From an uncultured Bacteroidales bacterium (lineage in GTDB: Bacteria > Bacteroidota > Bacteroidia > Bacteroidales > UBA932), in contig CALUTW010000011.1 in the NCBI GenBank assembly GCA_944323805.1, positions 1 through 64,000 on the forward strand: a stretch of DNA of 64,000 nucleotides, in the 5' to 3' direction. Positions 2,848 to 39,590 of the stretch are shown one piece after another. The translations under genes were made by a program, and so were the position numbers. Every line of letters begins with the position of its first letter. Position 1 is the stretch's first letter. The notes beneath the pieces were generated by a model. That model was not told the DNA's origin. It saw nothing but the letters and a program-made list of their open reading frames with translations, and did no database searches.

Positions 2848-4050
2848 TCAATAAATCATGCCGATAAGCCATAGAGGCAATTTATTGCCGGAAACCAATT
2901 CAATCCTATCTGCCAATATGTAAGAATTATCGATTCCGGCTATCTGTCTGAAAGTCTTGTCTGGCCCGCCGACCTCAAAAGTATACTTCCCGTCCACTAC
3001 AAAATCCCCTGCAGACCTGCCGTATTCCACTTCATGACCGGATGAACACAACTGATTGACAACAAATGTTTCCCGTATCGTTCCGACATGCACATTACCG
3101 GACACTATCGCATTCAGGAGATTTGTATTCTGGACATAAATCTTGTCGGGCTTCTGCATTTTTTTAACAGACAGCAAGTCTGAATACAGCAATTTTATCA
3201 ATTCCGCCTTGTCAAGATTCCGCAGATACGCTATTACGGAATTCCTGGCAAGCCCAATGGTTTTCGCCAACTTCATTATATCTATTTCGAACGGCACCGA
3301 AGTAGCGATAATGGCCAACAATGCCTTGATTTTCCGCGAATAAGCCGGATCGGTACCACACAGCGACGGTAGTTCCTGCTCTATTATATAATTGACTACA
3401 TTCTCGATGGAGATATGATAGTCTTCCTTATTCCCGTCGAAAAACGGATAATATCCACACTGAAGATATTCTTCGAACAATGGTTGCGGCCTGCATTTGT
3501 CAGTGACATCAAGACATATTTTATTCGCATTCCGAAGGAGTTCTTCCAATCCGTATGCAGGAAAATCCATGTCTTTGTAGAATTTCAGAAACTCCCTGAA
3601 TGACAGGCCAGGCATATAATATGGCAGACACCTTCTCGACAAGTCCGCATCTGCATTGATCAGATTCAACAACGATGATCCCGTAAATACAATCTGTAGA
3701 GACGGATACATGTCATAAATTTCCTTTATTTCCTTACTCCATGTCGAATACTTATGCACTTCATCCAAAAAAAGCCTTTTTCCCCCCATCAGATAGAAGT
3801 TTTCCGCCAATTCCAACAGGGAATGATTGCTGAAATACATGCTGTCAAGACTGCAATACAGAACCTCACGACTTCCGGCCGGGTAATTGAGTTTTATAAA
3901 CTGCTTAATGAGCGTGGTTTTGCCCACACCTCGCGCCCCCCTGATTGCTATCAGCCTCCTGTCCCAATGAATACTGTTCATCATATCCCTGACAATATCG
4001 GTCTGAGTCTGTGCCAACAAACGCTCCTGTTTCTGAAAAAGGCTTTCCAT
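2848..4050 (-). CDS. AAA+ ATPase with DUF4143-type C-terminal domain
   Basis: 400-residue protein. Walker A GARGVGKT lies at residues 38-45, Walker B LFLDEVHK at 93-100 and a sensor-like VFTGSS at about 121-126. The C-terminal part (YGRSAGDFVVDGKYTFEVGG) matches the nuclease-like DUF4143 fold usually paired with this ATPase. The family is common in Bacteroidota and archaea, is often strain-variable, and its cellular role is unknown. An in-frame ATG at 4077 exists, but a -7 promoter box at 4075-4082 covers it, so ATG 4050 (MESLFQKQERLL) is preferred. The gene looks more AT-rich than its neighbours, which suggests it may be an acquired cargo gene. It stands alone in its transcript, and three dyad repeats cover and precede its promoter. 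Confidence 0.85.
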   Translation of the reverse strand: MESLFQKQERLLAQTQTDIVRDMMNSIHWDRRLIAIRGARGVGKTTLIKQFIKLNYPAGSREVLYCSLDSMYFSNHSLLELAENFYLMGGKRLFLDEVHKYSTWSKEIKEIYDMYPSLQIVFTGSSLLNLINADADLSRRCLPYYMPGLSFREFLKFYKDMDFPAYGLEELLRNANKICLDVTDKCRPQPLFEEYLQCGYYPFFDGNKEDYHISIENVVNYIIEQELPSLCGTDPAYSRKIKALLAIIATSVPFEIDIMKLAKTIGLARNSVIAYLRNLDKAELIKLLYSDLLSVKKMQKPDKIYVQNTNLLNAIVSGNVHVGTIRETFVVNQLCSSGHEVEYGRSAGDFVVDGKYTFEVGGPDKTFRQIAGIDNSYILADRIELVSGNKLPLWLIGMIY

Positions 4051-27165: not shown

Positions 27166-28116
27166 TCAGTCCATCGACTGGGCTATGCTTGTGCCGAGAG
27201 CCATCATTTCAGCATACTCTTCCGGTGTCAGAGATGCAAAGAAGAAATTGATAGGGTCCATCGCCACCTTGCCCCGCCACACCTCATAATGAAGATGCGG
27301 GGCGAAAGCCTTGCCCGACATGCCGGAGAGACCTATCTTATCGCCTTTCTCGACCCGTCTTCCCTGTCTGACATGAATCTCCTGCAGATGGGCGTATTTT
27401 GTGACATAGCCGTTGCCATGGTCTATGGCAACGACATTTCCGGCGCCCTTCTTCGACCTTGTCACCGATACCACCGTGCCGTCGGCCACGGCATAGACCG
27501 GTGTGCCTGACGGGATGATGAAATCCAGTCCGTCATGCTTCGAATATACCTTGTAGAACGGATTGATCTTATTGCCGGCGGACGCCCCCACCTGAGGGAA
27601 GATGAAGTCCTTTACCGGAAGCACCAGAGGAGGCATGGAATCCCTCATCTCAATGCACCTCTTCATTATATAGTCAAGGGACCTGTCGACCCTGCCGGCG
27701 GCATCAGCGGTCTCGGAAAGCTTCGATTCGGTATAAAGGACTATCCCGGCGTCGGATGAGATCGAATCCCCGAAAGAGGCGAATCCGGCATAGCCGAAAT
27801 CGGGAGAAGTCGGCGACGGCGAATGGAATATCTCCTCATAGATGCTCCCGTCCCGCTGCTCCAGACCGGAAACGACGTCATTCAGCAGAGCTTCCTTCTC
27901 CGCCATCCCGTCATACAGCTTCTCGTACATCCGGTTCTCCTGCTTCAGCTTCCGTTCGGCATCCGTGCTGAAGACCAGGGCAAAAAGGATATAATACAGC
28001 ACAGCAAGGGCTATACTGACCACGAAATACTTCAGACACCTGCGGAAGACTGCCTTGAATGTGGGCCTGACACGCCTTATCTTGTAATTGTTGTCGAGGA
28101 CATATCTGCTGCTCAT
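27166..28116 (-). CDS. M23-family peptidase, membrane-anchored (second of a tandem pair)
   Basis: 316 residues. A short cytoplasmic N-terminus (MSSRYVLDNNYKIRRVRPT), one membrane helix (about 30-52), a coiled-coil-like stretch, then an LytM domain with HDGLDFIIPSGTPVYAVADG (His-x3-Asp zinc ligands) and HLHYEVW (HxH). All catalytic residues are present, so it may cut peptidoglycan cross-links rather than be a degenerate activator. Its start overlaps the stop of the upstream M23 gene as ATGA, indicating translational coupling. The paired gene has the same layout, so the two arose by duplication. Confidence 0.9.
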   Translation of the reverse strand: MSSRYVLDNNYKIRRVRPTFKAVFRRCLKYFVVSIALAVLYYILFALVFSTDAERKLKQENRMYEKLYDGMAEKEALLNDVVSGLEQRDGSIYEEIFHSPSPTSPDFGYAGFASFGDSISSDAGIVLYTESKLSETADAAGRVDRSLDYIMKRCIEMRDSMPPLVLPVKDFIFPQVGASAGNKINPFYKVYSKHDGLDFIIPSGTPVYAVADGTVVSVTRSKKGAGNVVAIDHGNGYVTKYAHLQEIHVRQGRRVEKGDKIGLSGMSGKAFAPHLHYEVWRGKVAMDPINFFFASLTPEEYAEMMALGTSIAQSMD

Positions 28117-29081
28117 GACCCGCTTTTTACCTTGTTGACAAGAGACATATAGTCAGAAGTGTCCATGGACAGGTCGAAATAGTTGTACGGATTGACCGGC
28201 CTGTCCTTGTATATTACCTCGTAATGCAGATGAGGGCCTGTCGACTTGCCGGTATTGCCGGACAGCCCGAGGAATGTACCCATCTTTACGGTATCGCCCT
28301 CATGTACCGAGATTTCCTTCATGTGGGCATATCTTGTCTTATACCCGAACCCGTGATTGACGACAACAGAGTTGCCATAGCCGAAGAACGCATGGCGGAC
28401 TTTCTCGACGACCCCGTCGGCAGTGGAATAGACGCTGTTCCCCGTCGGCATCGCAAAGTCAATCCCCTCATGGAAAGCGGTACGGCCGTATACCGGGTCT
28501 GTCCTGCGGCCATACGCGCTGGAGATATGGTATGAGCCCGGAACAGGGCATATCGGAGCGATTGACGGTACCCTGAGCATCATCTCGCCGGAATATTTCG
28601 ATATGGCGGCAATCTCATCGAAGGACTTGCTCTGCACATAGGCCTTCTTTGTCAGGACATCCAGCCTGAGGGCCATATCCTTAAGAAGGGAGGAGCAGTC
28701 CCCCTGGTCAAGGTATGCATACCTGTTGACACCACCGAATCCGGCATTGCGGACCTCGTCGGGTATCTCATACATCCCGAAGACGGACCTGTATATGTCA
28801 TTATCCCTCACGGCAAGCATTGAAAGCGCTTCGTCATAGCCGTCGAGCTGCCTGTCCATCATCTCGTAACGTGCACTCCACTTGGCATTGTTCTTCTTGA
28901 TGATCATCGTCTTAGGCAGGTCGTTCCCGAGTACGGAAGTATATATCCATACATAAAAGAAGGCCGCTGCGATACTCCCTGCAAAAAGCAGCATGCTCTT
29001 TAGGAAGCGGCGGGTCGACCTTTCTGTCAGCTCGTAAGAAAGCGTATCCGGATTGAAAATATACTTCTTGAATTTTGACAT
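28113..29081 (-). CDS. M23-family peptidase, membrane-anchored (first of a tandem pair)
   Basis: 322 residues from ATG 29081 (MSKFKKYIFNPDTLSYEL). One membrane helix (about 30-50), an alpha-helical linker, then an LytM domain with HEGIDFAMPTGNSVYSTADG and HLHYEVIY, keeping the zinc ligands His, Asp and HxH. Periplasmic wall hydrolase or divisome regulator. The frame extends to 29150, but the -7 box TATCTTTG (29086-29093) lies inside that extension, so ATG 29081 is preferred. Divergent from alaS. Confidence 0.9.
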   Translation of the reverse strand: MSKFKKYIFNPDTLSYELTERSTRRFLKSMLLFAGSIAAAFFYVWIYTSVLGNDLPKTMIIKKNNAKWSARYEMMDRQLDGYDEALSMLAVRDNDIYRSVFGMYEIPDEVRNAGFGGVNRYAYLDQGDCSSLLKDMALRLDVLTKKAYVQSKSFDEIAAISKYSGEMMLRVPSIAPICPVPGSYHISSAYGRRTDPVYGRTAFHEGIDFAMPTGNSVYSTADGVVEKVRHAFFGYGNSVVVNHGFGYKTRYAHMKEISVHEGDTVKMGTFLGLSGNTGKSTGPHLHYEVIYKDRPVNPYNYFDLSMDTSDYMSLVNKVKSGS

Positions 29082-29085
29082 GCCG

Positions 29086-29093
29086 CAAAGATA
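29086..29093 (-). promoter_or_regulatory. -7 promoter box of the M23 pair, four bases from the start codon
   Basis: Minus-strand TATCTTTG, then CGGC, then ATG 29081. A transcript from this box would begin at about the ATG, so the mRNA could be leaderless. A -33 box is not obvious. Confidence 0.45.
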
Positions 29094-29116
29094 CTCCATT
29101 ATTTGCAAAAAAGTTA

Positions 29117-29124
29117 TAATTTTG
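29117..29124 (+). promoter_or_regulatory. -7 promoter box for alaS
   Basis: TAATTTTG, 34 nt before ATG 29159, fits TAnnTTTG. It is back to back with the M23 promoter on the other strand, in a roughly 75-bp divergent intergenic region. Confidence 0.45.
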
Positions 29125-29158
29125 CAGGTTATTTGTTGAAAATTAGACATTATTTATA

Positions 29159-31783
29159 ATGAACAATATGACTTCCAAAGAAATAAGGCAAGCATTCCTT
29201 GACTTTTTCGCTTCAAAGGGACATGTGATTGTCCCGTCAGCCCCAATGGTTGTAAAGAATGACCCGACACTCATGTTTACGAATGCCGGGATGAACCAGT
29301 TCAAGGACTGGTTCCTCGGGAACAGCGTACCGAAATACAAGAGAGTGACAGACAGCCAGAAATGTCTCAGGGTCAGCGGAAAGCACAATGACCTCGAAGA
29401 GGTGGGACACGACTCCTACCACCATACGATGTTCGAGATGCTCGGCAACTGGAGCTTCGGGGACTATTTCAAAAAGGAAGCCATAGAGTGGGCGTGGGAA
29501 CTGCTTACCGACGTGTACGGGATTGACAAGGGACGCCTGTATGCAACTGTCTTCCAGGGAGATGCCGAAGACCACACGGAGATGGATACAGAAGCCCTCG
29601 AGGAATGGAAGAAATATCTGCCGGAGGACAGGATACTGTTCGGCAACAAGCATGACAATTTCTGGGAGATGGGCGATACCGGCCCGTGCGGCCCGTGCAG
29701 CGAAATCCACGTCGACCTCAGAAGCGATGAGGAACGCGCGGCCCTCCCGGGAAGAGAGCTCGTAAACAAAGGCCATCATCTCGTAATCGAGATATGGAAT
29801 CTGGTATTCATGCAGTTCAACCGCAAGGCAGACGGGCATCTCGAGCCGCTTCCGAACAAGAACGTCGATACGGGCATGGGCTTCGAGAGGCTCTGCATGA
29901 CGCTCCAGGGGAAGACGAGCAACTACGACACAGATGTATTTACCGGCATGATACACAGGATAGAGGAGCTCTCCGGCCACAGCTATACCGAGTCGGAAAA
30001 GACCGGGGTGGCAATGAGAGTGATAGCCGACCATATCAGGGCAATCAGCTTTTCCATAGCTGACGGCCAGCTGCCGTCAAATGTCAAGGCAGGGTATGTA
30101 ATAAGGCGTATCCTCAGAAGGGCCGTAAGATACGGATATACATTCCTCGGGTTCAACGAGCCGTTCCTCTGCAGGCTTGTAGGCCAGCTCGTAGACGATA
30201 TGGGACAGTCCTACCCTGAGATTGCAAGGCAGCAGCCCCTGATAGAGAAAGTCATCCAGGAGGAGGAGATGGCTTTCCTGCGCACTCTCGACAGGGGCAT
30301 CAAGCTCATGGACAGCATAATGGAGAAGTCCAAGGAGACAAGGATAATCACAGGGGAGGATGCATTTGTCCTGTACGACACCTACGGGTTCCCTATCGAC
30401 CTGAGCGAGCTCATCGCATCCGAAAACGGATTCTGCATAGACATAGCCGGGTTCGAGAGGGAGCTCCAGAAACAGAAGGACAGGGCAAGGAACGCCACTT
30501 CCCTGGAGTCGGGAGACTGGGTGGAATTCCACCACTGCGACAATGTCGAGTTCGCAGGCTATGACTTTACGGAAATAGAGGGTGCCACACTTGCAAGGCA
30601 CCGGACTGTAAAGGCCAAGAACAAGACGATGTACCAGCTCGTCTTCGACAGGACACCGTTCTATGCCGAAATGGGAGGACAGGTCGGAGATACAGGATAC
30701 ATCATGTCCGAAAGCGGAGAGAAGATACAGATACTCAATACAATAAAAGAGAACAACCTGACCATCCACATCGCTGAAAGGATTCCTGAGGACTGCTCCG
30801 GGGCCTTTACCCTGCATGTGGACACCGACAGGAGGCTGCGCATCACGGCCAACCATACTGCTACCCATCTGCTGCATAAGGCACTGAGGGAAATCCTCGG
30901 CACACATGTGGAGCAGAAAGGCTCCTATGTATCGCCTTCATATTTCAGATTCGACTTCTCGCACTTCGAGAAGCTCACTGACGAGCAGATAGACATTGTG
31001 GAAAGACGGGTAAACGAGCTTATCCGGCTCGACAGCCCTCTTGAGGAGAACCGTTCGGCAACGATGGAGGAGGCCCAGGAAATGGGAGCAATGGCCCTGT
31101 TCGGGGAGAAATACGGAGACCGGGTACGCATCGTGAAGTTCGGGGACTCGGTAGAGCTCTGCGGAGGTACGCATGTGAGGGCTACCGGCCAGATAGGATT
31201 CTTCAAGATAGTGTCTGAGTCGGCAATCGCCGCCGGGATACGCAGGATAGAGGCGACGACAGGAGCCGATGCAGAGAATGTCGTAGATGCAATGGAAAAC
31301 ATGTTCCGCGCGGCAAAGGCATTGTTCAACAACGCCCCTGACCTGGCAATGTCCATCAGGAAGCTGATTGAAGAGAACGAGCATTACAGGAAGGAGATGG
31401 AGGCAATCGCCAAGGAGAAGGCGGCCGCACTGAAGAATGCGCTCAAGGAGAACAGCAGGGAAATCAACGGCGTCAACATGGTTACCGTCACGCAGCCGGT
31501 CAATCCGAACATGCTGAAAAACGCCGCAGCCATGCTGCAGAAAGAGACATCCAACATGGCCATAGCCGCTGCATTCGAGTTCGAGGGCAAGCCGCAGCTG
31601 CTCCTGATGTATTCACAGGACCTTGTGGATGCAGGACACAACGCATCCAAGGATGTCAAGGAGGCAGCGAAAGCCATCCTCGGAGGAGGCGGCGGACAGC
31701 CTGGGCTCGCGACTGCAGGAGGAAAGGAGACTGCCGGGCTCGATGATGCCCTGAATACTCTTATCGGACTTGCAACTAAATAA
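29159..31783 (+). CDS. alaS: Alanine-tRNA ligase
   Basis: 874 residues, standard bacterial length. The class II catalytic core starts [21 protein letters not shown], with motif 2 region [15 protein letters not shown]. The editing domain carries [11 protein letters not shown] and CGGTHV (metal ligands), and the C-Ala domain ends [15 protein letters not shown]. It charges tRNA-Ala and corrects mischarged Ser/Gly. An alternative ATG four codons in (MTSKEI) is possible. It lies 25 bp before the permease-Fmt fusion in the same direction, so the three genes to 34927 are probably co-transcribed. Confidence 0.97.
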
Positions 31784-31808: not shown

Positions 31809-34256
31809 ATGAAGAAGCTTGACTCATACATACTGAAATCTTTCATAGGGCCGTTCTTTGCGATCCTGCTTGTTGTCGTCTTCATCCTCATGATGCAGTT
31901 TCTCTGGCTCTACATCGATGAGCTGGTCGGCAAGGGACTGAGCATAAAGGTCATACTTGAATTCCTCGGATGGGGCTGTGCGACACTGCTCCCCCTGTCC
32001 CTGCCTCTTGCCACACTTCTTTCATCGATGATGACACTTGGGACACTGGGAGAGAACAACGAGCTGCTCGCAATCAAGGCCGCCGGAATATCGCTCAAGC
32101 GGGTACTTACCCCGCTCATGATTGCCTCGTTTGTCGTCAGCATCGGGACATTCTTCGCGACCAACAACCTTGTGCCTGTCGCCTACAACAAGATATACAC
32201 CCTCAGGGACGATATCGGCAGGACGAAAGAGGAAATCAAGATCCCTACAGGCACATTCTATGACGGCATCGACGGATACACCCTGAGAGTCAATTCGAGG
32301 AACGAGGACACCGGCATGATGCACGATGTCATGGTCTACAACCACAACGGGACGAAGGGCAACACCAGCCTGACTCTGGCAGACTCAGCACTCATGAAGA
32401 TGTCAGAGGACAAGACCTACCTGACATTCATCCTGTATGACGGGATAAATTACGAGGAGACCAACACAAGGAAATACCGCGATACCACCCTGCAGCTCCA
32501 GAAGATAGAGTTCCACAGGCAGGAACTTGTGATTCCGCTGGAAAACTACGCATTCAAGAAATCCGAGGATACCAGGTTCGACGACCAGGTCACGGCAATG
32601 AACCTCAAACAGCTCAACCATGGGGAAGACTCCATCGGACGGTTGAATTCGGACATCAGGAAAGACCATCTCGAGACCCTGCGGAAGAGTACCATACTGA
32701 TGTACAACAGCCAGCTGGACACCTCGAGACATGAGGCTATCACTGTCCCGTTCACATACGAGGGATTCATGGAATGGGACGATATCGGAGGGGAGATCCG
32801 CAGCTACGAGAGGGCTCTCTCGCAGGTAAACGAATACATCTCCACCCTGACTACATTCGGCAGGGAGACCTATTACTATTCATACCTGCTCAGGAGAATC
32901 GATGTAGAGCAGCTGAAGAAATTCGCTGTCGCGATAGCATGCTTCATTTTCTTCTTTATCGGGGCTCCGCTCGGGGCACTGATAAGGAAAGGCGGGCTCG
33001 GGACTCCGGCCATCATCTCGGTCCTGTTCTTTGTCGTATACTGGGTCGTGGACATATCCGGGACGAAGCTTGCCAATGACGGGGCCATTGCAGCCAGCAC
33101 AGGAGTATTCATATCGTCGTACGTGCTGTTCCCGATAGGGATGTTCCTCACATGGAAGGCGATAAATGACTCATCGATATTCAGCACCGACAGCATGAAG
33201 ACATGGATCAAGAAATTCCAGATGAAGATAATGGGAAAGATAAGAAGGACGAGGATAGTATACATGGGGACCCCGGAATTTGCCGTAGCCCCTCTTGACG
33301 AGCTCATAAGGAACGGCTACCATGTGGTCGGGGTGGTCACTGTCGCCGACAAGGCCAGCGGCAGAGGACTGAAGGTAAATGAGAGTGCAGTCAAGAAATA
33401 TGCTGTAGAACACGGCCTGCCGCTGCTGCAGCCGACATCGCTGAAAGACCCGGAATTCATAGAGGCCCTGAAGGCATGGAAGCCGGACCTGTTCGTTGTG
33501 GTGGCCTTCCGCATGCTGCCTAAGGTCGTATGGGAAATCCCGCGGCTCGGTACATTCAACCTGCATGCAGCCCTTCTGCCGCAATACAGGGGTGCAGCCC
33601 CTATAAACTGGGCGATAATAAACGGGGAACACCTGTCCGGAGTGACGACATTCATGATTGACGACGGGATGGACACGGGACACATCATCTACAGGGAGCA
33701 ATGCAGGATTGAAGACACTGACACCGCAGGAGACCTGCACGACAAGCTGATGGCCCTCGGAGCCAAGATTGTCGTACAGACAACCGAGACAATCATAGAA
33801 GGCCAGGTTGAACTCAAGCTGCAGAAAAGCTACATCCAGGGAGACGAGGTGCTGAAACCTGCCCCGAAAATCACGCACGAGCTCTGCCATATCGGATGGG
33901 ACGCAAAGACCAGCCGTGTATACAACCTCATACGCGGACTCAGCCCTTATCCGGGAGCCTTCACGGAATTCACAAGGGACAGCGACAGCATGAATGTCAA
34001 GATATTCACATCCGAGAAACTGACGTCCGACGGTCTCCGCGCCCTTATCGCGGCTGCAGGGGAGGCCGGCCATGCCCATGATGCAGATACATCCGACCCG
34101 GGTACAATCTTCTCGGACGGGAAGTCATGGCTTGCCATCCGCACACTTGACGGGGCGATATCCGTCACAAGCCTGCAGATGTCCGGGAAGAAACGCATGG
34201 ACATCAGAAGCTTCCTCGCCGGATTCCGCGAGCCCGAGACATGGACAGCAAGATAG
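31809..34256 (+). CDS. LptF/LptG-family permease fused to methionyl-tRNA formyltransferase
   Basis: One uninterrupted frame of 815 residues. Residues 1 to about 474 are a complete LptF/G (YjgP/YjgQ) LPS-export permease: N-terminal helices (YILKSFIGPFFAILLVVVF, then two more), a large periplasmic beta-jellyroll, and three C-terminal helices from about 375 to 465. Residues 475-815 are a complete Fmt: IVYMGTPEFAVAPLDEL, the cofactor/catalytic stretch FNLHAALLPQYRGAAPINWAI, SGVTTFMIDDGMDTG, and the C-terminal tRNA-binding domain. The LptFG partner complex moves LPS out of the inner membrane; Fmt formylates initiator Met-tRNA. The join (about 455-485) is basic and rich in Lys, on the cytoplasmic side. 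Met475 (ATG 33231) could be an internal start for Fmt alone; only a weak GA-rich stretch precedes it. Whether one polypeptide is made is unproven. Confidence 0.88.
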   Translation: MKKLDSYILKSFIGPFFAILLVVVFILMMQFLWLYIDELVGKGLSIKVILEFLGWGCATLLPLSLPLATLLSSMMTLGTLGENNELLAIKAAGISLKRVLTPLMIASFVVSIGTFFATNNLVPVAYNKIYTLRDDIGRTKEEIKIPTGTFYDGIDGYTLRVNSRNEDTGMMHDVMVYNHNGTKGNTSLTLADSALMKMSEDKTYLTFILYDGINYEETNTRKYRDTTLQLQKIEFHRQELVIPLENYAFKKSEDTRFDDQVTAMNLKQLNHGEDSIGRLNSDIRKDHLETLRKSTILMYNSQLDTSRHEAITVPFTYEGFMEWDDIGGEIRSYERALSQVNEYISTLTTFGRETYYYSYLLRRIDVEQLKKFAVAIACFIFFFIGAPLGALIRKGGLGTPAIISVLFFVVYWVVDISGTKLANDGAIAASTGVFISSYVLFPIGMFLTWKAINDSSIFSTDSMKTWIKKFQMKIMGKIRRTRIVYMGTPEFAVAPLDELIRNGYHVVGVVTVADKASGRGLKVNESAVKKYAVEHGLPLLQPTSLKDPEFIEALKAWKPDLFVVVAFRMLPKVVWEIPRLGTFNLHAALLPQYRGAAPINWAIINGEHLSGVTTFMIDDGMDTGHIIYREQCRIEDTDTAGDLHDKLMALGAKIVVQTTETIIEGQVELKLQKSYIQGDEVLKPAPKITHELCHIGWDAKTSRVYNLIRGLSPYPGAFTEFTRDSDSMNVKIFTSEKLTSDGLRALIAAAGEAGHAHDADTSDPGTIFSDGKSWLAIRTLDGAISVTSLQMSGKKRMDIRSFLAGFREPETWTAR

Positions 34257-34927
34257 GAATTATGGGAAAATCGGCGGTCATAATATGCAACGGGGAATTC
34301 CCCGCAAAGGAATATCCGAGATACATCATCCGGAATGCAGATATCATCGTATGCTGTGACGGTGCCTTTGACAGATACCTCAGGCATTGCGACAGCATCT
34401 TCGGCAAGACGAGGCTCCCGGATGCAGTCATAGGCGACATGGACTCGATCTCGAAGAGGAAAAGGGAAAGATACGGCAGCATTATGGTCCATGTCAGCGA
34501 CCAGGACACAAATGACCAGACCAAGGCATTCAATCATATCCTTGAGCGCTGGCCCGACGTATCGGAAATCCATATCACAGGTGCCACAGGAATCCGGACA
34601 GACCACACCATAGGCAACATCTCTCTCCTCATGGAATACGCCAGAACATATGACCTTGAGTCGAAAGGGATTACAGTCGACATCATTTCCGACTGCGAAA
34701 CCATATTCCCTGTGACGGACACCATCGAGCTGATGTGCGGGACAGGCCGCCGGATATCGGTAATGACGCCTGACAGCACCCTGAGAATCCATTCGGAAGG
34801 TCTGGTGTGGCCGCTTGACGATGTCGTCTTCGACAACTGGTGGAAAGCGACGCTCAACAGGGCCGGAGAAGACAGGGTAAAGCTGGTCTTCAACCACAGG
34901 TCAATCGCTCTCGTCATCATGGACTGA
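34241..34927 (+). CDS. Thiamine diphosphokinase
   Basis: 228 residues from ATG 34241, which overlaps the fusion gene's stop by 16 bp; ATG 34262 (MGKSAVIICNGEFP) with AGGAAT upstream is an equally good start. Family motifs: VCCDGAFDRYL, VIGDMDSIS (metal site), DQDTNDQTKAFNH and TGATGIRTDHTIGNISLL. It makes thiamine diphosphate from thiamine and ATP. No TPP riboswitch is visible upstream; the gene seems read with alaS and the fusion gene. Cytoplasmic enzyme, last of the plus-strand group. Confidence 0.9.
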   Translation: MDSKIGIMGKSAVIICNGEFPAKEYPRYIIRNADIIVCCDGAFDRYLRHCDSIFGKTRLPDAVIGDMDSISKRKRERYGSIMVHVSDQDTNDQTKAFNHILERWPDVSEIHITGATGIRTDHTIGNISLLMEYARTYDLESKGITVDIISDCETIFPVTDTIELMCGTGRRISVMTPDSTLRIHSEGLVWPLDDVVFDNWWKATLNRAGEDRVKLVFNHRSIALVIMD

Positions 34928-37356: not shown

Positions 37357-38448
37357 TTATTTCGGTGCAATCCTGTACAGGAAGCCGGCCACTATTGCAA
37401 AAAGTATATTAGGCACCCACAGTGCGATTCCCGGCGGAAGGAAATCGGTATAGACGAACATCTGGCTGAAGCGCAGGAACAGGATATACGAGAAACTCAG
37501 CGCAATGCCTATCCCGATATTCCAGCCGATTCCGCCCCTCCTTTTCTTGGAGGACAATGCCACTCCCATGATTGTCAGGATAAAGGCTGAGAAAGGCAGG
37601 GCAAATCTGGTATGCTTTTCTATCAGGGCGACCTTCACATTCTCGTCGCCTCTCATCTTCTGCACATCTATCAGCTGGTTGAGCTTTTTCAGCGACAATG
37701 TCTCGACCGAGCCTTTCTGTACGTAGAGGTCATTTACTGTCAGGTTAATGACCGTATCCAGCTGTGCCCCGCTGCGGACATGGTCTTCAAGTGCGGTATT
37801 ATAGTCCCTGATAAAGTATTTCCTGAGATTCCAGCATCCCCCCGTACTGTCCCACACTGCCGTCTCTGCCGACAGCTTTGACACCAGCCTGTTGTCCCTG
37901 ACCCTTTCCAGGGTAAAGCGGTAGGCAGTCTTGTTCCATGCACTGAATGACTCGACGAATACGAATTCTCCCGGGGATATCTGGTAATGTATGTCACGGG
38001 CGGTTGTCCTGTTGTGGCCCTTTATATACTTGCTTTCGAACTCCACCCTTATCTCGTTGGACTTCGGTATCACGAAAAGGTTCAGGCTGAGGGAGAACAA
38101 TGCAATAAACGCAGCCGACACTATGTACGGCACCATCATCCTGTGGAAACTGATGCCGCACGACAGGATGGCCACTATCTCCGAGTTGGACGCCATCTTC
38201 GATGTGAAGAAGATCACGGTTATGAATACGAACAGCGGACTGAACATATTCATGAAATAAGGTATGAAATTGAGATAGTAGTCGAATATTATGGCGGACA
38301 GAGGTGCCTCATTGCTGACAAAGTCATCAATCTTCTCGCTGATGTCGAAGATAATCACGATGCCGATAATCAGCAGCAGGGCTATAAAGAAAGTGAATAT
38401 GAATTTCTTGATTATATACAGATCAAGCAGTCTGGGTCTGAGTTCCAT
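37357..38448 (-). CDS. LptF/LptG-family LPS-export permease
   Basis: 363 residues from ATG 38448 (MELRPRLLDLYIIKKFIF), 11 bp after the tgt stop; the frame runs on to 38502 but that start would overlap tgt. Three membrane helices at each end flank a periplasmic jellyroll (about 105-260). FALPFSAFILTIMGVALSSKKRRGGIGWNIGIG is the family's C-terminal signature. It would pair with an LptB ATPase and a second LptF/G; the other one in this window is the N-terminal half of the Fmt fusion at 31809. The tgt-permease pairing is conserved in Bacteroidota. Confidence 0.9.
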   Translation of the reverse strand: MELRPRLLDLYIIKKFIFTFFIALLLIIGIVIIFDISEKIDDFVSNEAPLSAIIFDYYLNFIPYFMNMFSPLFVFITVIFFTSKMASNSEIVAILSCGISFHRMMVPYIVSAAFIALFSLSLNLFVIPKSNEIRVEFESKYIKGHNRTTARDIHYQISPGEFVFVESFSAWNKTAYRFTLERVRDNRLVSKLSAETAVWDSTGGCWNLRKYFIRDYNTALEDHVRSGAQLDTVINLTVNDLYVQKGSVETLSLKKLNQLIDVQKMRGDENVKVALIEKHTRFALPFSAFILTIMGVALSSKKRRGGIGWNIGIGIALSFSYILFLRFSQMFVYTDFLPPGIALWVPNILFAIVAGFLYRIAPK

Positions 38449-38459
38449 AGCCTGTTCGT

Positions 38460-39590
38460 TTAAAGTCTTGTCATCAGTCTCGGGACAACGGCATCCTTCC
38501 ATGCCCTGAAATCTCCGGCCTTGATATGCTTCCTTGCTTCGCGGACGAGGTCAAGATAGAAGGCGAGGTTGTGCTCGCTGGCTATCTGCCCCGCAAATAT
38601 CTCCTTTGCAATGAAAAGATGCCGCAGATACGCTTTCGAATATGTCCTGTCGACAAATGATGTGCCTTTCGGGTCCAGCGGGGAGAAATCATCCGCCCAT
38701 TTCTGGTTCTTCATATTCATTATGCCGTCCCATGTAAACAGCATCCCGTTGCGTCCGTTGCGGGTAGGCATCACGCAGTCGAACATGTCGACGCCTCTGG
38801 CTATGCCTTCAAGAATATTGGCGGGAGTCCCGACTCCCATGAGATAGCGAGGCCTGTCGTCCGGCAGTATCGGACACACCACCTCCAGCATCTCGTACAT
38901 CTGCTCGGTAGGCTCTCCGACTGAAAGCCCTCCGATTGCATATCCCTCCCTGTCGAAGGATGCGGCATGCTCGGCGGCTTCCCTGCGCAGGTCAGGATAC
39001 ACACAGCCCTGAACAATCGGGAAGAATGTCTGGGAATACCCGTACAGCGGCTCAGTTGCATCGAAATGCCTTATGCAGCGCTCCAGCCACGCCTTGGTAA
39101 GGGTAAGGGACTTCCTGGCATATTCATATGACGCATCGCCAGGGGTACATTCATCGAGAGCCATTATTATGTCCCCGCCTATGATACGCTGCGTATCGAC
39201 ATTGTTCTCCGGGGTAAAGACATGCCTTGATCCGTCGATATGCGAGCGGAATGTACACCCGTCAGGGGTAAGTTTCCTTATCGGGGACAGGGAGAACACC
39301 TGGAATCCCCCGCTGTCAGTCAATATGGGCCTGTCCCACGAGATGAAGCGGTGGAGACCTCCTGCGGCCTTGAGGATATCAAGCCCCGGGCGCAAATACA
39401 GGTGATAAGTGTTGCCCAGGATGATTTCCGCCCCGATATCTTCCTTCAGATCCCTGTGATATATGCCCTTTACAGACCCGACAGTGCCTACCGGCATGAA
39501 GATAGGTGTCTCGATTGTCCCGTGGTCCGTGGTAATCACTCCGCATCTTGCACTGGACTGGCTGTCAGTATCTGTCTTGACGAATTTCAT
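38460..39590 (-). CDS. tgt: Queuine tRNA-ribosyltransferase
   Basis: 376 residues. Catalytic motifs: TDSGGFQVFSL (nucleophile region), GGDIIMALDECTPG (second Asp), GYAIGGLSVGEP, MGVGTPANILEGIARGVDMFDCVMPTRNGRNG. It swaps guanine 34 for the queuosine precursor in tRNAs for Asp, Asn, His and Tyr. Full length for the bacterial enzyme. The C-terminal zinc-site region reads AYLRHLFIAKEIFAGQIASEHNLAFY, where E. coli has Cys ligands; some Bacteroidota forms lack them. Immediately followed by the lptF/G gene. Confidence 0.95.
   Translation of the reverse strand: MKFVKTDTDSQSSARCGVITTDHGTIETPIFMPVGTVGSVKGIYHRDLKEDIGAEIILGNTYHLYLRPGLDILKAAGGLHRFISWDRPILTDSGGFQVFSLSPIRKLTPDGCTFRSHIDGSRHVFTPENNVDTQRIIGGDIIMALDECTPGDASYEYARKSLTLTKAWLERCIRHFDATEPLYGYSQTFFPIVQGCVYPDLRREAAEHAASFDREGYAIGGLSVGEPTEQMYEMLEVVCPILPDDRPRYLMGVGTPANILEGIARGVDMFDCVMPTRNGRNGMLFTWDGIMNMKNQKWADDFSPLDPKGTSFVDRTYSKAYLRHLFIAKEIFAGQIASEHNLAFYLDLVREARKHIKAGDFRAWKDAVVPRLMTRL

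Follow-up and report, generated by a model that had tools for sequence, protein, structure and literature searches.

ArnA combines a formyltransferase and a UDP-glucuronic acid oxidase in one fused protein; it acts on UDP-Ara4N, and both of its parts belong to one pathway. The initiator tRNA of E. coli carries a C1-A72 pair. The methionyl-tRNA formyltransferase (Fmt) of E. coli occurs free, as a monomer of about 34 kDa (PMC8843374), and its insertion loop and the Arg within that loop recognize the initiator tRNA (PMC13234167, PMC8843374). We analyzed a stretch of 64,000 nucleotides, referred to here as the window, that sits on a contig of 79,887 bases from a genome of 2.12 Mb with an estimated completeness of 99%. 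The nearest named relatives are metagenome-assembled genomes of Candidatus Cryptobacteroides, and related assemblies come from the guts of ruminants and horses. The family is probably UBA932 of GTDB; papers exist in which both names are used. In the window, one frame joins a permease of the LptF type to a complete Fmt; we found no earlier description of an LptF-Fmt fusion in the literature searched, a search that was limited in scope. The fused gene, its parts, its neighbors and the second permease of the window are as follows.

31809-34256, + strand: fused gene lptF-fmt, 815 codons plus stop, an open frame that is fused also in relatives
31809-33164, + strand: LptF-type permease half, residues 1-452 (PF03739 at 7-450, 6.4e-68; AF2 secondary structure)
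33165-33248, + strand: basic linker, residues 453-480 (AF2, charge, dN/dS)
33249-34253, + strand: Fmt half, residues 481-815 (PF00551, PF02911, TIGR00460; best PDB matches are Fmt)
29159-31783, + strand: alaS, directly upstream, with a gap of 25 nt to lptF-fmt (PF01411, PF07973, PF02272)
34241-34927, + strand: thiamin pyrophosphokinase (PF04263, PF21275)
37357-38502, − strand: second LptF/G permease, a separate gene (PF03739, 2.6e-70)

The longest frame of the thiamin pyrophosphokinase gene overlaps the end of lptF-fmt by 16 nt. Two neighboring M23-peptidase genes are found at positions 27166-29150 of the window (− strand), divergent from alaS.

Pfam placed LptF_LptG at residues 7-450 (229.8 bits against a cut-off of 27.9, covering positions 2-353 of the 353 in the profile), Formyl_trans_N (PF00551) at residues 482-658, and Formyl_trans_C (PF02911, the tRNA-binding C-terminal domain) at residues 687-807, where positions 1-100 of the 100 in the profile are covered. 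The Fmt half also scored 232.2 with the NCBIfam model TIGR00460, above the curated cut-off of 201.5. These matches indicate that the LptF and Fmt halves are both complete. A reading made earlier from the letters of the window, referred to here as the sequence-only reading, had described a complete, untruncated fusion of LptF/G and Fmt in one frame; this description is borne out by the full-length domains and by the open frame in relatives. An AF2 model based upon 59 sequences, chosen without the loci obtained by genome search (mean pLDDT 79, pTM 0.45), kept both folds, and in this model the permease half is laid out as membrane helices, a periplasmic beta domain, and a final membrane helix that ends near residue 452. 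Since the last membrane helix stops at about 452 and the first strand of Fmt runs from 482, we place the linker at residues 453-480. The boundary at 474/475 given in the sequence-only reading is therefore moved to approximately 480/481 on the basis of homology, with Met475 falling inside the linker, although its division into two complete halves stands. Within the linker AF2 predicts a helix at about residues 460-478 with low confidence (pLDDT about 47-57 in the covering blocks), and the placement of the halves relative to each other is not predicted because the pTM is only 0.45. The net charge of the linker averages +4.9 within the genus, and its dN/dS is 0.26-0.39.

The permease half scored better with the NCBIfam model for LptF (TIGR04407, LptF_YjgP; 154.8) than with that for LptG (92.8). 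The TIGR04407 cut-off of 230 is not reached, so the half is filed as a member of the LptF/G family, and its designation as LptF rather than LptG, which rests only on the better model score, is a provisional one. Solved LptF/G chains match the permease half over part of its length only, and no LptF is among the fold-search matches shown, so the fold search adds nothing for this half, whose support comes from sequence. A family search of the genome detected only two PF03739 genes, the fusion included; the second permease, at 37357-38502, is presumed to be the partner subunit, of the LptG type.

The predicted Fmt half had solved Fmt structures as its best matches, with target-normalised TM scores of 0.82-0.87. 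Residues that bear upon function were located by alignment with E. coli Fmt at the following positions.

33363-33365, + strand: codon of Arg519, equivalent of the insertion-loop Arg42/43 of E. coli Fmt
33558-33674, + strand: stretch holding the codons of Asn584 (33558-33560), His586 (33564-33566) and Asp622 (33672-33674)

Arg519 lies in the motif GRGLK, which aligns with GRGKK of E. coli Fmt, and is invariant in 63 fused sequences. Asn584, His586 and Asp622, which we take to be the catalytic Asn/His/Asp of the Fmt family, are likewise invariant in the 63 fused proteins. Both halves are under purifying selection: in 17 close pairs, all disjoint, dN/dS was about 0.07-0.16 for the domains and 0.26 for the linker. 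Family searches of the genome, upon which all single-copy statements here are based, identified one Fmt gene, the fused lptF-fmt, and one deformylase; the cell thus seems to obtain Fmt from the fused protein alone. The genome also contains an initiator-type tRNA-Met, for which C1, G2-C71, C3-G70, G4-C69, A73 and a GGG/CCC anticodon stem were read from the sequence. This tRNA is encoded on the − strand at positions 1440-1515 of locus L190 (contig C2 of G000, the window's genome), and simple counting from its ends gives C1, U72 and A73.

The fusion is real and is conserved in Cryptobacteroides. Among 36 further genomes from the genus, the full fused frame was found in 32, and in none of the 36 were there two separate genes. 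The remaining four comprise G025, in which a frameshift lies inside the LptF part and the junction is open, and G004, G010 and G014, for which we obtained only fragments or no match to Fmt. After a scan of GTDB genomes 80 loci were retained, every one of them fused; eleven named Candidatus Cryptobacteroides species are represented among them. The frame was open in 129 of the 166 related loci read (118 distinct sequences), far more than chance would give; every Cryptobacteroides-level locus among them had it open with the exception of the frameshifted one of G025 (L122). In a larger sample of the family the genus rows listed were fused too, the exceptions (G600, G642 and G661) beginning near contig ends. 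G671 showed a short frame, but its sequence has an intact junction, the break lying upstream, in the LptF part. The search for a stop codon or frameshift between the halves in close relatives, which had been put forward with the sequence-only reading as a means to refute the fusion, left it unrefuted.

Within the window's family, fused genes are found in g1 (the window's genus), g28, g30, g31, g40, g41 and g42, and in single genomes of g27 (G062) and g48 (G120); the other g27 and g48 genomes read have lptF and fmt separate and adjacent. The two genes are also separate and adjacent in g29, g35, g36, g37, g39, g43, g44, g47 and g50. In four outgroup families about 3.7 kb lies between lptF and fmt on one strand, the spacer read in one case holding two glycosyltransferase-like genes and a ribBA-like gene, all named from sequence only; in a fifth (G050) the genes are adjacent and separate. 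Among the Fmt matches listed from order, class and phylum samples, no LptF-Fmt frame was found outside the window's family. Large frames around Fmt in G687, G726 and G407 proved on reading to be stand-alone or randomly extended, with no fusion to LptF, and open-frame values near 820 in G050, G139 and G151 were traced to separate genes that share a frame and have a stop between them. In g39, loci L133, L134 and L135 (G173, G139 and G151) have separate lptF and fmt genes in frame with the lptF stop alone intervening; such pairs are one step short of fusion or read-through. In other Bacteroidales families (G038, G051, G054, G056, G058 and G060), LptF-type matches occur in frames of about 630-684 residues, which suggests that these carry a different C-terminal extension.

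The separate state points to how the fusion originated. Where the genes are separate, the lptF stop lies between 80 bases before and 7 bases after the codon used as reference for where Fmt begins, in many cases with an overlap of the fmt start, and the separate fmt genes of the sister genera start mostly 2-7 codons ahead of the Fmt reference point. The tails of separate LptF proteins and the fused linkers share the opening xDSxxFN, and the linker therefore looks like a former LptF tail joined to Fmt. Because lptF and fmt are adjacent and often overlapping in the sister genera, simple loss of the stop is a sufficient origin. We considered whether the initiator Met of Fmt had become Thr (ATG to ACG) and rejected this idea: the Thr codons are ACA in 45 cases, ACC in 33, ACG in 13 and ACT in 5, and the separate genes start mostly 2-7 codons earlier. 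The gene order also qualifies the view, taken in the sequence-only reading, that the two products have no known common pathway; this is correct for the biochemistry, but the genes adjoin, and often overlap, in sister genera.

A tree of 63 loci was built from LptF and Fmt (780 columns, linker left out). It requires five changes between the fused and separate states, at least three of which are forced by well-supported branches. A single clade of all fused rows except G120 was rejected (AU p = 0.0003, a value weakened by the group having been chosen after the tree was seen). Trees of the single halves required five and six changes, and g1 and g42 formed one clade in both. G120 nests among separate genes, beside its separate-gene sister L140, and this placement inside a separate-gene clade makes a fusion of its own the simplest account. 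At its junction, near base 3170 of locus L132 (G120:C52), both the stop and the start are missing and no lone indel is seen; the locus comes from a single genome of 80% completeness. For the other fused lineages the tree does not separate gains from fissions. The fusion probably arose more than once, and some of the state changes on the tree are possibly reversals.

We consider it most likely, on the strength of the sequence comparisons, that the gene yields one bifunctional, membrane-tethered LptF-Fmt protein. The N-terminal part would be the LptF subunit of the LPS-export transporter, working with LptG as usual, and the cytoplasmic C-terminal tail, joined on by a basic linker some 29 residues long, would be the cell's only Fmt, formylating initiator Met-tRNA while held at the membrane. 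We infer that the halves are translated as one chain, are both active when fused, and are not cleaved apart later. Such a protein would have started from an lptF-fmt pair, directly adjacent and often overlapping, inside one Bacteroidales family, in which the lptF stop was lost and the frames merged, probably more than once.

A reading compatible with a single bifunctional protein, and concerned with why the fusion persists, is that it is a tolerated, near-neutral product of tightly coupled neighbors, the tethering having no role of its own. We give this reading an even chance. It is favored by the overlapping or nearly touching lptF-fmt pairs of sister genera, by the recurrent switching between states (five changes on the tree, of which at least three are forced and some are possibly reversals), and by the variation among fused lineages in both the length (28-43 residues) and the sequence of the linker. 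Within Cryptobacteroides, however, no separated pair was seen among the genomes read, and linker length is nearly fixed, with no gap in 106 of 107 sequences, a hint of constraint. Both of these observations are still compatible with neutrality because going back to two genes would require several coordinated changes. That the fusion became fixed as a tolerated, neutral event is no less likely than fixation through a benefit of tethering. The merging of a coupled gene pair accounts for all of the data. Membrane-held formylation may have a role, though the data lend it no support; the sequence-only reading suggested that tethering could matter for co-translational membrane insertion or for linking translation to envelope growth, and the data speak neither for nor against these ideas.

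It is unlikely, in our estimate, that free Fmt from a start in the linker is an additional, or even the main, product in cells, with the fused chain minor or serving only for translational coupling. Three ATG codons in the linker of the window's species could serve in this way.

33231-33233, + strand: codon of Met475, candidate internal start
33222, + strand: codon of Met472
33195, + strand: codon of Met463

The Met475 codon is ATG in 63 of the 118 distinct fused sequences, an ATG stands within 15 codons before Fmt in 90 of them, and the fmt starts of sister genera lie mostly 2-7 codons ahead of the same point. Against such a start, 28 of the 118 lack an ATG and 17 lack any ATG, GTG or TTG within those 15 codons; when 25 codons are taken, 12 still lack an ATG and 5 lack all three, three of these 5 belonging to the window's genus. 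We found no extra constraint at synonymous sites around the junction, of the kind expected of an embedded start signal, and initiation at the next Met, within Fmt, would, judging from the sequence, cost the first strand. With start codons missing near Fmt and no dip at synonymous sites, an internal start for free Fmt is not conserved. The use of Met475 suggested in the sequence-only reading is accordingly possible in the window's species but does not extend to all fused genes, some of which have no start before Fmt. Free Fmt may be made from an internal start in some species, and the fused chain may also be cleaved by proteolysis after translation.

Rather improbable, to our minds, is a stronger version of the tethered protein, in which formylation of the initiator tRNA has to occur at the inner membrane, where the LPS transporter faces the cytoplasm, and selection repeatedly favored the fusion because it couples initiation or the folate one-carbon state to growth of the outer membrane. 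If a single chain is made, the enzyme through which every initiator tRNA is prepared is anchored in the membrane one-to-one with a subunit of an envelope transporter, and it becomes testable whether formylation must diffuse freely and whether initiation can be localized. The locus also cautions that a fusion should not be equated with a functional link until the ancestry of the gene pair has been checked, and automatic annotation will be confused by a single protein that carries two unrelated names, in a gut lineage that is widespread.

We see very little chance that the formyltransferase half works in the manner of ArnA, with an amino sugar of LPS as its substrate. ArnA and other sugar formyltransferases are homologous to it, and such an activity would explain the link to LPS export through a pathway shared by the halves. 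However, the half passes the fmt cut-off (232 against 201.5) and scores only 139 with the ArnA model NF005998 (cut-off 777, for a profile that includes the oxidase half); it has the C-terminal domain that binds tRNA, and its insertion loop bears the conserved Arg; its closest solved structures are Fmt; and it is the sole Fmt of the genome, which also encodes a deformylase and an initiator tRNA. An artefact of assembly or sequencing, to which metagenome-assembled genomes (as the source sequences are, as far as their titles show) could give rise, has a negligible probability: the recurrence of the same fusion in over 100 distinct sequences, which come from different studies and hosts, already refutes it for the genus, and more than one indel sets the G120 junction apart from that of its separate-gene sister, the stop itself being gone.

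Compared with known systems, the fusion resembles LptF and LptG of LptB2FG (PF03739) in having the complete domain, in which membrane parts at the N and C termini accompany a periplasmic beta domain, and in having a second permease gene encoded nearby. It differs from LptF of that complex in that a whole second enzyme follows as a cytoplasmic tail at the C terminus, and from LptF as modeled by TIGR04407 in scoring under the cut-off, as a divergent member would. The second half is like Fmt (TIGR00460) in its two domains, its insertion-loop Arg, its catalytic Asn/His/Asp and its score above the cut-off; unlike the free Fmt of E. coli, it is covalently joined to a membrane permease. As in ArnA, a formyltransferase domain is part of a two-enzyme fusion connected with LPS, but the domain of lptF-fmt has features of the tRNA type and lies C-terminal to a permease. 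The lptF-fmt gene pairs of the sister genera differ from the fusion in keeping the stop codon and a separate fmt start; they consist of the same orthologues in the same order and on the same strand, and the two genes touch or overlap.
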